From contig CALGZC010000015.1 of the NCBI GenBank assembly GCA_937934745.1, positions 1-61,061 on the forward strand: a stretch of DNA of 61,061 nt, given 5' to 3'. A model generated the notes under the pieces. The model had not been told where the DNA came from, searched no databases, and saw only the letters and a list, made by a program, of their open reading frames with translations. A program made the translations under genes and the position numbers. This stretch comes from an uncultured Blastocatellia bacterium (GTDB lineage Bacteria > Acidobacteriota > Blastocatellia > Chloracidobacteriales > Chloracidobacteriaceae). Each line of letters starts with the position of its first letter. Position 1 is the first letter of the stretch. This document shows, one piece after another, positions 19,583 through 23,806 of this stretch.

Positions 19583-20403
19583 TCAACGCAGCCGGATACC
19601 GGAGGGCTCGCTCGGTCGCTGCGTACGCCCGTTTGAGGAGCCACCCTTATAAGCGGCCACAATAGCTTCCACGTCGTCAGGTAAGCGCCCTTGAAGGTTA
19701 TTTTGACCTTGACGCCTTGAGAAGCCGCTCCCTTGACCTCCTTGGTCAGGCCGCGGCGGATGAGATGCTCCGCCTCGTCAGGCGCGAACGCCTCTATCAT
19801 GGAGCGCTCAGACCCGATTGGGATCAAGGCCGGCGCTTGAGGCCCGCGGCTTCGAATGGCTTGGAATACCCTACACAAAAGGGCAGGATCGGATTCTGGG
19901 GCAGCCGGTATAGCTTTTTCCGCTCCCAGCGCGGGAGGATGGGCGGGAGGAAAACGTTACCCCCAAACAGGTGAAACCCGTCGGAAAATGGCTGGCTCAA
20001 CTCCAGTGGAAGTCGCTTTTCCGCGAACCATTCCGTGATGGTGATGGTCGCGATACACGGGTCTATCGTATGTCGGTAAACTCCCAGCAGGTTTCCATCC
20101 CTATAGGATGCGCCGGCAACAAACCGGCAACAAATTTGAAGCTGAGCAGCTTGAGCTTGGCTTCCAAGGCGCGAACGCGAAATTGCTCGCCGCCCTCTGC
20201 ATACAGCTTTTCCAAAAGCGTCGGCGATAGGCGCAGCCGCTTTTCTTTCGGAGGGCCAAATTGGATGAAAAGCGGAAGCAGGCCGTCGAAGAATAGCCGA
20301 AAGAGCAATAAGCCCAGCACAACGTGCCGAGCGTATTGAGACCGGTAATAGGAGCATTGGTCAGGAACTGCAAGACAGAAGAAAGGATGAACATGGTCTG
20401 CAT
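19583..20403 (-). pseudogene. frameshifted gene for a membrane-associated protein of unknown family
   Basis: Coding-like sequence runs leftward but in pieces. It starts at ATG 20403 (AGGAAA ribosome-binding site) with a hydrophobic helix (MFILSSVLQFLTNAPI), shifts near 20310 to LLLFRLFFDGLLPLFIQFG and KLKLLSFKFVAG, shifts again at 20113-20134, continues through DPCIATITITEWFAEKRLPL and PPILPRWERKKLYRL, shifts near 19820, and near 19690 shifts a last time to LPDDVEAIVAAYKGG and a stop at 19583. Shift two is exactly an 11-bp tandem duplication. The others fit single-base losses; the last would be GGGG read as GGG. Decay or partly sequencing error. Family not recognised. Confidence 0.7.
20113..20134. 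repeat. 11-bp perfect tandem duplication that frameshifts the pseudogene
   Basis: CCGGCAACAAA occurs at 20113-20123 and again at 20124-20134. Removing one copy joins the reading frames on each side into FKFVAGASYRDGNLLGVY on the minus strand. Confidence 0.95.
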
Positions 20404-20529
20404 GACGGCTTTTCCTGTTCCTTGCCCCCGCCGCCGTGGTACTAAGGCATCGCCAATGGTGCCGGCTATGGTATGCAGCAAGCCTGTTCAGCACAGGCTC
20501 TCCCGGCAGAGCGGCAGACGTCGGTTGTT

Positions 20530-21336
20530 TCAACCAGGCGTTGCGTCACCGCCGTCTTCCGGCAGACGCATAATGACTTCACGACCAAGCTGAATGTAAG
20601 CCTGTGCTCCGGCAGCTCGCGTTTTGAGTGTGACGGCCGGCGTTCCGACGGCGAATGAAACTGCCAACTCCTCATGACGCGGGATGACCGTGTCAAAAAC
20701 CAACCCGTTGGGAAACGCCTCGCGTGCCTGCCGTACAATGTCAGCGGCAGCAGACTGCCGTTCGTCGTACATCGTCAACAAAATGCCCTCGATGCTCAAC
20801 CGGGGGTTGTACTGCGCCTTGATATGCAGAACGCGCCGCAACATCGGCGGCAGGGTGCGTAGGCTGAGTGGCTCACACTGAACCGGCAAAATTAGGGCAT
20901 CTGCTGCGACAATGGCGCCGGTTGTCACGTTGCCCAGCCCGGCCGGAGTATCCAGCAGTACCAACTGGGGAACGAAGTCTTTGGTCGCCAGGTGGGGCAG
21001 GAGGCGCGCTAGCCACGTCACATCCCGCTCAAAAGCGCGTTCGTAAGCTTCCAGCGCGCCATCGTCACTGAAACGGCCTGAAAGAACAACGGCAAGCTCT
21101 GTGCGGTTGGTTGGAACAAGCGCTTCCTCAGGTCGTCGTCCGTGCAGCAAGACATCTTCAAGCGTTGGACCTGTGTAGGTATCCAGACCAACGCCAAAGC
21201 GGACGCCGTTTTGTACGTCCAAGTCCACGAGCAGGGTTGGCACACCCATTGCGGCGACATAAGCCGCTAGGTTGGTGCAGGTCGTTGTTTTCCCAACGCC
21301 GCCCTTGAGACTGACAACAGCCAACGTTTTCGGCAT
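20530..21336 (-). CDS. ParA/Soj/MinD-type P-loop ATPase
   Basis: A 268-residue ATPase of the deviant Walker family: VVSLKGGVGKTTTCTNLAAY (K10 and K15-type lysines), LLVDLDVQNG (Walker A'), LVLLDTPAGLG (Walker B). Chromosomal ParA proteins pair with ParB; no ParB or parS is visible. Instead, it follows, by only 6 bases, a small unknown protein and a V4R-like protein in one leftward unit, so it more likely positions or assembles a protein complex, as orphan ParA/MinD proteins do. Partner unknown. Confidence 0.85.
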   Translation of the reverse strand: MPKTLAVVSLKGGVGKTTTCTNLAAYVAAMGVPTLLVDLDVQNGVRFGVGLDTYTGPTLEDVLLHGRRPEEALVPTNRTELAVVLSGRFSDDGALEAYERAFERDVTWLARLLPHLATKDFVPQLVLLDTPAGLGNVTTGAIVAADALILPVQCEPLSLRTLPPMLRRVLHIKAQYNPRLSIEGILLTMYDERQSAAADIVRQAREAFPNGLVFDTVIPRHEELAVSFAVGTPAVTLKTRAAGAQAYIQLGREVIMRLPEDGGDATPG

Positions 21337-21342
21337 GACGGA

Positions 21343-21711
21343 CTAACCGGCGGATGGGTCGGCGCTCGACAGTGGACGGACAACGCGCTGGAAAAAGCCG
21401 GCTACGGTTTCCCCATCAAAATCAAGCACTTCGTGAGTGGCAGCCTGTGATGCGACGTACAGCTTTAGCTCAACCTCCCCGGCGCGCGTTTTGACCACTT
21501 CGCGCACGACGGACTGGACGGCACCGGCGCTTGGGAGAGGCGGCGGCACTGTCCACACCGGGTCTGGGTCGGCTTCAACACGGTTTGGTGTGTATGCACT
21601 TCCCTGGGCATCCGGTCGGTCAGACGATGGAGCCGCGCCGCCGGTGGACGGCAAGGCAAGAATCTGCTGGAGGAGCTGTGCGGCCTGATCGGTTTCCGTA
21701 AAGCGCGCCAT
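21343..21711 (-). CDS. small protein of unknown function between ParA and the V4R-like gene
   Basis: A 122-residue soluble protein. Residues 1-20 form an amphipathic helix (MARFTETDQAAQLLQQIL), a Pro/Ser/Ala-rich linker follows (20-65), and the C-terminal ~55 residues look folded (GEVELKLYVAS, EVLDFDGETVAGFFQRVV). ATG 21711 has AAGGTAG upstream and is preferred over a longer frame. Spacings of 13 bases to the V4R-like gene and 6 to ParA show one transcription unit. An N-terminal peptide plus linker is a common layout for proteins that stimulate or are carried by ParA ATPases; this is inference. No family recognised. Confidence 0.7.
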   Translation of the reverse strand: MARFTETDQAAQLLQQILALPSTGGAAPSSDRPDAQGSAYTPNRVEADPDPVWTVPPPLPSAGAVQSVVREVVKTRAGEVELKLYVASQAATHEVLDFDGETVAGFFQRVVRPLSSADPSAG

Positions 21712-21724
21712 GATGATGCTACCT

Positions 21725-22306
21725 TCATGGGGCTGTCTCGTCGGCGAGACGCTTGAGAATGTCATTCGGTTCCTGCCGGTAGGTCAACCAGGCGTACACT
21801 TTCCGAATAATGCCCGCTTCGCCCACCACGAAGCGACAATAGTGCGCGTTGACCGCCAAACAGCTGATTTCGACCGCTTCTTGAGAACGTCCGGTGTACT
21901 GTGTGACGACTTCCGCAAACAGGCCGGCAAAGAGATCGTCCACCGGAGCAGATGCCGGCGCAACCATGCGCAGTGCCGCGGCAACGGGTGAGTCATAGTG
22001 GTTGATGATCAACACCGTCCCCAATGGGACGGCGTCAAACCGCCCCCAACCTAAGTCGGCGAACCATTCGTCACACTGTCGCAACCGCGCGCTGAGCGGC
22101 ATCTCCGGCGATACAGCCTTGGCGGTGCTTGTGTACTCGCGCAGCCACCGTCTGCCGGCCAACCGGCCCAGGCGGTACAGTGTGCCGGGAGTGTCATCCG
22201 GCAGTCGCCGCGTCAGTTCAGCGTGGACGGCGACAATCAAATCGGCCGGCCACCACAACTGGTGTCGGCCGGTCTCCGGTGATGAGAAGACAGCAGGCGC
22301 AGTCAT
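21725..22306 (-). CDS. V4R-like (4-vinyl reductase / NO-sensor-fold) small-molecule-binding protein
   Basis: A 193-residue protein. The order of features follows the V4R domain: LYRLGRLAGRRWL, LSARLRQCDEWFADLGWGRF, VLIINHYDSPVAAA, VDDLFAGLFAEVVTQYTG, and near the end EISCLAVNAHYCRFVVGE, which mirrors the E-xx-C-x-A...C-x-F-v signature. V4R domains bind small ligands and include the BchJ protein of bacteriochlorophyll synthesis. Because the next gene upstream resembles bilin reductases, a tetrapyrrole ligand is attractive but unproven. ATG 22306 is used; longer frames run into the upstream gene's gap. Confidence 0.6.
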   Translation of the reverse strand: MTAPAVFSSPETGRHQLWWPADLIVAVHAELTRRLPDDTPGTLYRLGRLAGRRWLREYTSTAKAVSPEMPLSARLRQCDEWFADLGWGRFDAVPLGTVLIINHYDSPVAAALRMVAPASAPVDDLFAGLFAEVVTQYTGRSQEAVEISCLAVNAHYCRFVVGEAGIIRKVYAWLTYRQEPNDILKRLADETAP

Positions 22307-22458
22307 ACGGCCGGGGCAGGTTTGCTGAAGGAGGCTGCCGAACACGGATTCGGCTGCACAGCCAAGCCGCTTCGGACAAACTTGTGTAGGGCAGAAAATA
22401 CCACAGCTGCCAGGTGAAAAACCAAATGGATTACATCGCAGCTTGTGACCGACCAGGC

Positions 22459-23205
22459 TTACCCAAGCGGCGCCGCTGCCGGCGGATGCGCCGGACCGAA
22501 GTGCCATTCGCGCAGGAAAGCGTCCGTCCAGTCTGCACCGGCCTTGGGTGCAAGCAAGGTGTACCCCGGCGAATGCGCGGCATGATGCTGTTTGTAATCG
22601 GTCACGGCCGGATGATCGGGTCCAACTTGAGCCTCCGCCAATCCAGGTTGGTAAAGCCTTTCCGCCGTTGCCTTCAAATAGTCTTGAAACGCCCGGCGCA
22701 TCAGCGCCAGGCAGGACAAGTCCCCGGATGTCACCAACGCCCACGCCTCTCGAATTTCGTCAAACCAGGACGGAGAAGCCGGTGCCGGCGGCAGCGCGGC
22801 CAAATGACGCATCTGGAGGGGCATCAACGCTTCACGCGCGCGCGTGCGAAGGGCATCCGCCCGGCCAAGGCATTCCACATCGAGCACGAGGATGTGCGCC
22901 CGGCTTCCGATGACGACCCACTCGCAGGCAAAGACCGGAAGCACGTCGGGGCTGGCCGTCGGATAGACCATCAATGTCGCCACATCGGCCAGGACCGTCT
23001 GGATGCGAGCATAGCGGGCGCACAACTTCCCGTTGGCAACCGACCATCCGTCGGCGGTGACACGCATCAGTTTGTCCCCTGTGCCAAAGGTTGCATGGCG
23101 AAATGCTGCGGGGCGCACCTCTTCCTGCCACCCAAGGTCGCCCAGACGGTCATGGGCGTCGGGTAAGGTCCATCCCACAACATCTTTGAACGGATTGCTC
23201 GGCAT
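22459..23205 (-). CDS. ferredoxin-dependent bilin reductase-like protein (PcyA/HY2 fold), atypical
   Basis: A 248-residue protein that I align by memory with PcyA. Shared are MVYPTASPDVLPVFACEWV (81-82 YP, 89-92 LPVF), HILVLDVECL, LP...PSWFDEI (139-149), QDYLKAT, and an ungapped C-terminal match from Tyr204 through Gly223 and Trp226 to Phe236. However, the residues at the PcyA catalytic positions differ: His88 is Thr77, Asp105 is Glu95 and Asp220 is Ser212. So it may reduce another bilin, reduce none, or bind only. FDBRs are mainly cyanobacterial, algal and plant enzymes. First gene of the leftward unit with V4R and ParA; divergent from a gamma carbonic anhydrase. Confidence 0.6.
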   Translation of the reverse strand: MPSNPFKDVVGWTLPDAHDRLGDLGWQEEVRPAAFRHATFGTGDKLMRVTADGWSVANGKLCARYARIQTVLADVATLMVYPTASPDVLPVFACEWVVIGSRAHILVLDVECLGRADALRTRAREALMPLQMRHLAALPPAPASPSWFDEIREAWALVTSGDLSCLALMRRAFQDYLKATAERLYQPGLAEAQVGPDHPAVTDYKQHHAAHSPGYTLLAPKAGADWTDAFLREWHFGPAHPPAAAPLG

Positions 23206-23266
23206 AGATTCGGCGTCGTTTCCGAGATGGCAGGTTATCTACAATAGAAAAGGGGTGAGGCAATCA

Positions 23267-23806
23267 ATGGGGCTTTTGGCGTTTCAGCAGGCGTTCCCTC
23301 GACTCGCCGCCGGCGTGTATATCGCGCCCTCGGCTGCGGTCATCGGCGATGTCGAACTGGGTGGCGATGCCAGCGTTTGGTTCCACTGTACTGTACGCGG
23401 CGATGTCCATGCGATTCGTATTGGTGAGGCAACCAACATCCAGGACAACACGGTTTTGCATGTCACGGGTGGATTGTTTCCCTTGTCAATTGGCCGCCGT
23501 GTCATCGTTGGTCATCGGGTCATTGCCCATGGTTGCACGATTGGCGATGACTGCTTGATCGGCATGGGCGCGATTATCCTCGACGGCGCGGTGATCGGCG
23601 CCGGCAGCATCGTGGCCGCCGGGGCCGTCGTGCCGGAAGGGATGGTTGTCCCGGCCGGGATGCTGGTGGCCGGCGTTCCGGCAAAGGTCAAACGTCCTGT
23701 CACCGAGGCGGAACAGGCACGCATAGCGGAAGGGGTCCGACACTACATCGAACTCAAAAACATCTACCTGCACGCAGCGGCTGCGGGTCTTCATCCCACA
23801 CCGTGA
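23267..23806 (+). CDS. gamma-class carbonic anhydrase family protein (YrdA/CaiE-like)
   Basis: A 179-residue left-handed beta-helix of hexapeptide repeats. VRGDVHAIRIGEATNIQDNTVLHV is the family signature; the metal histidines are the H of VLHV and those of VGHRVIAHG. The trimer would bind zinc or another metal between subunits. Such proteins may hydrate CO2 or act as a carrier-associated scaffold. GGGGTGAGG upstream of ATG 23267 settles the start. Its last 16 bases overlap the converging membrane-protein gene. Confidence 0.9.
   Translation: MGLLAFQQAFPRLAAGVYIAPSAAVIGDVELGGDASVWFHCTVRGDVHAIRIGEATNIQDNTVLHVTGGLFPLSIGRRVIVGHRVIAHGCTIGDDCLIGMGAIILDGAVIGAGSIVAAGAVVPEGMVVPAGMLVAGVPAKVKRPVTEAEQARIAEGVRHYIELKNIYLHAAAAGLHPTP

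Follow-up and report, generated by a model that had tools for sequence, protein, structure and literature searches.

On the minus strand of a 61,061-nucleotide stretch of contig CALGZC010000015.1, referred to below as the window, four consecutive genes encode a homologue of the ferredoxin-dependent bilin reductases (FDBRs), a V4R-fold protein, a short linker protein and an ATPase of the ParA type that lacks a neighbouring ParB gene. The window belongs to the assembly GCA_937934745.1 (G000; 3.29 Mb in 73 contigs) of an uncultured Chloracidobacterium. The cluster keeps its order throughout the genus and retains its V4R-linker core elsewhere in the family. By analogy with a bacterial cytoskeletal scaffold, we tentatively suggest that the ATPase may organize a scaffold of V4R and linker proteins, with the FDBR brought in as a client. 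The cluster comprises:

22459..23205, minus strand: FDBR homologue, open reading frame of 248 residues; placed in the pre-1 type of pre-PcyA proteins, as judged from genus and context
22307..22458, minus strand: spacer of 152 bases between the FDBR and V4R genes
21725..22306, minus strand: V4R-fold protein, 193 residues, of a third V4R type (p1)
21343..21711, minus strand: linker protein, 122 residues, 10% proline
20530..21336, minus strand: ParA-type ATPase, 268 residues

These are the four leftward reading frames of the original prediction, found at the positions it gave and separated, as it stated, by successive gaps of 152, 13 and 6 bases. Its naming of the two folds, of ParA and of a small linker-like protein was likewise correct, based on family models and, for the FDBR and V4R proteins, on predicted folds. 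A consensus scan of the spacer returned neither a sigma-70-like promoter nor a terminator-like site; the same scan found no promoter anywhere across 20300-23500 and is hence uninformative.

Gene order in the genus, family and phylum

The order FDBR-V4R-linker-ParA is found on one strand in 7/7 Chloracidobacterium genomes (the window's own and six others), which is more than chance would give. The gap between linker and ParA is 6-15 bases in all seven, and that between FDBR and V4R is 112-166 bases in four of the six congeners, those in which the start pattern located the V4R gene. Because congeners share much synteny, the evidence from other genera is the stronger. Across the 10 genomes of the family, the p1 V4R gene and the linker gene are present in all 10, with ParA beside them in eight and FDBR beside them in eight. 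Nine genomes of the family carry an FDBR gene, and in eight of them, from two genera, it immediately precedes the p1 V4R gene. The conserved linkage that had been proposed from the window alone thus holds across the genus, and its V4R-linker core is kept in three other genera.

FDBR orthologues were found in 10 of the 58 genomes searched; an alignment scan of named genomes yielded four loci out of 31 candidate stretches, and a plasmid search with the FDBR gave no match. Of 396 genomes of the phylum, 83 gave a V4R match, and we compared the stretches around 20 of these matches, hand-picked for short open frames, with 24 reference proteins. Hits occurred in three (two V4R, one kinase) and none matched ParA, FDBR or the linker; these 20 sampled stretches thus gave no sign of the linkage beyond the family.

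The four proteins and their bilin-cluster context

The 248-residue protein matches PF05996 (Fe_bilin_red) with 32.5 bits, above the Pfam cut-off of 31. Its predicted model (predicted local distance difference test score, pLDDT, of 89.6) has the FDBR/RCCR/CPOX fold, with GtPebB as the best solved match (Z 24.2, root-mean-square deviation (rmsd) 2.6, 229 aligned), followed by PcyA (2g18, Z 22.5), RCCR (Z 18.6) and CPOX (Z 14.4). Profile alignment to PcyA chains places other residues at two catalytic positions of PcyA:

22975..22977, minus strand: codon of Thr77, at the place of PcyA His88
22921..22923, minus strand: codon of Glu95, at the place of the catalytic Asp105 of Synechocystis PcyA

The first position is Thr in eight of the nine rows of the FDBR alignment and Asn in the row of genome G012, and the second is Glu in all nine; Glu76 falls outside the alignment. 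Both replacements are in line with the published pre-1 FDBRs, which likewise lack His88 and Asp105, and the single pre-1 enzyme assayed in print was weakly active (PMC10151467). Next to the FDBR gene of G012 is an FNR-like gene (L082 17-1431), a possible source of electrons for the FDBR; it belongs to the same sequence cluster as an FNR-like gene upstream of the Fe-S (iron-sulfur) gene on contig C28 of the window genome.

In 2023 Rockwell, Martin and Lagarias described pre-1 FDBR genes clustered with genes for V4R, Fe-S and globin (BBAG) proteins, some of the clusters also having a heme oxygenase and others not. Their paper (PMC10151467) names Chloracidobacterium as lacking heme oxygenase and, in its section 7, links V4R to FDBR in the pre-1/pre-3 clusters that occur in several phyla. 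The genome context here is of the same kind. A V4R gene adjoins the FDBR gene, and contig C28 holds, at a distance, an FNR-like gene, Fer2, V4R, a linker, a Phycobilisome-family globin, a second V4R and a Ser/Thr kinase, one of the two V4R matches being below cut-off. The resemblance thus covers an FDBR with V4R, the BBAG and Fe-S genes with two V4R genes elsewhere in the genome, and the lack of heme oxygenase; the difference is that the V4R protein adjacent to the window's FDBR is of a third type, apart from both V4R proteins of C28. In the main text of that paper "ParA", "ATPase" and "MinD" have no whole-word occurrence and the linker is unmentioned, and we found no paper joining a linker and ParA to FDBR-V4R in a literature search that reached few subscription journals. 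The association of FDBR with V4R is therefore already published, and the linker and ParA look like an addition not found in print, making the cluster a variant of a published type. The assertion, made from the window alone, that no system of this composition had been described needs correction to that extent: only the linker and ParA are extra.

The 193-residue protein scores 28.2 bits alone against Pfam V4R (PF02830), just below the cut-off of 31, and 31.1 bits with its neighbours in frame. Its predicted model (pLDDT 87.0) has the V4R fold, aligning with the MopR sensor domain (Z 17.1, rmsd 3.2, 166 aligned) and with MJ1460 (Z 13.9). In a tree of 23 V4R sequences, which included five of the seven Chloracidobacterium p1 proteins and no BchJ, the window protein joins the p1 proteins of three family genomes from other genera (G007, G008 and G009) with support of 94/94, below the starred level. 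This branch stands apart from both BBAG-cluster V4R types, to which Acaryochloris sequences also belong, and on that basis we regard the window protein as a third paralogue. G007, G008 and G009 have a second V4R protein (p2), which falls near the first BBAG V4R type with weak support, a placement made unsure by the long branches of G007_p2, G009_p1 and G009_p2. In G007 this p2 protein drew no Pfam match at E 0.001, and it was its similarity to the other V4R proteins that identified it.

The linker has no Pfam or NCBIfam match. It is 47-52% identical to its counterparts in congeners and 20-26% identical to those of G009 and G007; across genera only its two ends are kept, at 20-31% overall identity:

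21670..21696, minus strand: N-terminal motif ETxxAAxLL, residues 6-14; E6, T7, A10, A11, L13 and L14 invariant in 8/8 linker rows
21385..21411, minus strand: C-terminal motif E-x-V-x-x-F-F-x-R, residues 101-109; E101, V103, F106, F107 and R109 invariant in 8/8 linker rows

The linker of G008, recognized at its expected place once the motifs had already been defined, has the C-terminal motif intact and Met for Leu13 in the N-terminal one. One strict linker pattern matched six of 295 gene calls, all six being linkers beside V4R genes, and missed a seventh (G009); three shuffled linkers each gave 0/20,000 matches. These statistics are weak evidence, as the patterns were drawn up after the sequences had been read. 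The linkers that lie between the V4R genes of BBAG clusters carry two or three FF..W motifs (the window genome, G005, G012, G008 and two Acaryochloris plasmids). FF motifs and V4R proteins thus go together, which suggests from sequence that the motifs may bind V4R proteins. On the Acaryochloris plasmid pREC3, an unannotated frame for an FF..W linker lies between a V4R gene and the next gene (L130 8624-8956).

The ATPase scores 90.6 bits against AAA_31 (cut-off 27), placing it in the ParA/MinD family, and its ATPase motif is intact:

21283..21306, minus strand: deviant Walker A motif KGGVGKTT, residues 11-18; invariant in 8/8 ParA rows

Its orthologues are 81-88% identical in the six congeners and 56-57% identical in G009 and G007. 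No ParB gene is found among the neighbouring genes read beside it, while each of the three other ParA homologues of the window genome adjoins a Pfam-confirmed ParB gene; canonical ParABS partition was rejected on this ground.

Several further genes accompany the V4R clusters. The C28 kinase (L085 9686-11488; Pkinase, 163 bits) is matched by homologues in the corresponding position of G005, G008 and G012. The C28 genes resemble the slr0144-slr0152 photosystem II assembly operon in their V4R pair, Fe-S protein, phycobiliprotein-like protein and following Ser/Thr kinase, the last of which we take to recall the cyanobacterial kinase gene slr0152 (spkG). The Acaryochloris plasmid version of this operon type shares the FF..W linker, and the two Acaryochloris stretches inspected carry no annotated FDBR or ParA, in which respect the operon type differs. 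The paper on the core cluster left the adjacent genes out of account. Upstream of the C28 cluster a receiver domain and DUF4388 are encoded in two overlapping frames, and in G005 by a single longer frame (L085 3317-4433; L090 81-1709); a receiver-domain protein is also encoded near the V4R pair of G007. Phytochrome was considered as a user of bilin and rejected, PHY being found in none of the 15 genomes searched.

A scaffold model and its alternatives

In the BcsHD and BcsPDQ systems, BcsD beads are threaded on a disordered partner to give assemblies of a cytoskeletal kind, and the ATPase, BcsQ, is of the ParA/MinD type (PMC11470070). Because the window holds the same kinds of parts, namely a bead of the V4R superfamily fold, a linker and a ParA/MinD-type ATPase, we propose that the ATPase may organize a V4R-linker scaffold with the FDBR as its client, a reading that we favour while granting it less than even confidence. 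At the heart of this small scaffold would be the V4R-fold protein or proteins and the linker, whose C-terminal FF motif would bind V4R and whose N-terminal motif would engage the ATPase. Through ATP-dependent dimerization the ATPase would place or assemble this scaffold in the cell. The FDBR would be recruited through V4R, and the linear tetrapyrrole that it would handle would serve the BBAG/Fe-S/V4R complex whose genes lie on C28. We favour this arrangement because the gene order is kept, ParA lacks a ParB, both linker ends are retained and FF motifs co-occur with V4R; a precedent exists in the Bcs scaffold, and co-purification has been reported for the cyanobacterial Slr0144-Slr0149, which comprise V4R, Fe-S and bilin-type proteins (PMC9880817).

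The Bcs parallel is an analogy in working and not membership of the Bcs system. The window linker is 10% proline and has no detected likeness to BcsP or BcsH, in keeping with its lack of a family match. Membership of a cellulose system was rejected: BcsQ is the top NCBIfam model of the cluster ATPase at 80.8 bits, under the cut-off of 157.85, and the best synthase score in the genome is 120.2 against a TIGR03030 cut-off of 699.1. McdA-McdB and other ParA/MinD cargo pairs offer a second comparison, as they too combine a ParB-less ATPase with a small partner-like protein and a candidate cargo. They differ in that the window linker has no positive N-terminus and that no microcompartment genes occur in the stretch examined around the cluster.

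Several observations weigh against the scaffold proposal. The partner proteins known for ParA/MinD ATPases are described as positively charged at the N-terminus (PMC10241942), whereas the first 30 residues carry a net charge of -1 in the window linker and of -2 to +2 across eight linkers. The V4R model does align with BcsD (7zzq; Z 12.8, rmsd 2.9, 134 aligned), but TRAPP subunits and V4R sensor domains outscore BcsD, which makes the likeness one shared by the whole superfamily. The gene set also comes apart outside the genus. In G008 the order is FDBR-V4R p1-V4R p2-linker, followed by about 100 bases to the contig end without a ParA start, and no ParA orthologue was found elsewhere in that genome (best 34%). 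In G009 the order V4R p1-V4R p2-linker-ParA lies on contig C15 and the FDBR gene on a separate contig, C85, while G007 has V4R p1-V4R p2-linker, a ParA orthologue (57%) on another contig among unrelated genes, and no FDBR that we could find. Finally, no source of a substrate came to light: a search for heme-cleaving enzymes limited to heme oxygenase (PF01126) found none in the 10 family genomes; across 20 genomes there were two PF01126 matches, one below cut-off and neither in the family.

The separations seen in G007 and G009 bear directly on whether the FDBR belongs to the module at all. The V4R-linker-ParA genes could have a job of their own unrelated to bilins, with the FDBR a mere neighbour in some lineages. 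G007 keeps the V4R pair, the linker and the ParA orthologue, and neither it nor G009 has BBAG or FMO matches. The spacer between FDBR and V4R also exceeds 100 bases where measured, against 6-15 for the other gaps. This explanation is possible, if somewhat unlikely, because the FDBR gene so regularly stands directly upstream of p1 V4R (the 8/9 genomes above) and because the V4R-FDBR linkage recurs across several phyla in pre-1/pre-3 clusters (PMC10151467). The same two genomes count against a role of the cluster in bacteriochlorophyll or chlorosome biogenesis with V4R as a BchJ-like factor, at which the original prediction had hinted. The FMO antenna gene is present in the window genome and its genus, and the V4R fold includes the "4-vinyl reductase" family. 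Since G007 and G009 keep the module with neither BBAG nor FMO found, the module is not tied to photosynthesis, and the window V4R groups with the proteins of these genomes and not with a pigment enzyme, in a tree from which BchJ is absent. The pigment role is thus unsupported and, in our view, highly improbable.

A different question is what the ATPase does. It might act like E. coli BcsQ, which sits within the synthase complex (PMC11470070), as an assembly or stabilizing factor for a membrane complex and not as a positioning motor. All four module ParA proteins scanned score higher against BcsQ (78.1-90.9 bits) than against ParA_partition (63-77.9 bits), whereas the ParB-linked paralogues on C11 and C38 far prefer ParA_partition (126.5 and 123.4 bits, versus 78 and 65.9 bits for BcsQ). 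The third ParB-linked paralogue, on C43, nevertheless also shows a slight preference for BcsQ (69.5 versus 68.8 bits), every BcsQ score remains below the curated cut-off, and the window genome has no cellulose synthase model above cut-off. A profile search of the PDB placed the cluster ATPase nearest ParA/Soj, with no BcsQ among the 15 rows at E<=1e-10, a result that tells against the Bcs analogy of the scaffold proposal as well. We consider a BcsQ-like role quite unlikely.

A further and rather unlikely extension of the scaffold proposal is that V4R proteins and FF-motif linkers constitute a "bead and string" scaffold widespread among bacteria, with one version in the BBAG/photosystem-assembly clusters and a separate one driven by ParA. 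Bilin machinery ancestral to phycobiliprotein chemistry would then be spatially organized by a ParA-type ATPase, in an evolutionary parallel to the BcsP-BcsD-BcsQ cytoskeleton. The conserved linker motif and the dedicated ATPase give a concrete idea of what V4R proteins may do in V4R/BBAG clusters, including the cyanobacterial photosystem-assembly one, namely serve as the beads of a scaffold. If this is true, the published ancestry of bilin chemistry would be tied to subcellular organization, and an otherwise orphan ParA-type ATPase would have a suggested partner.

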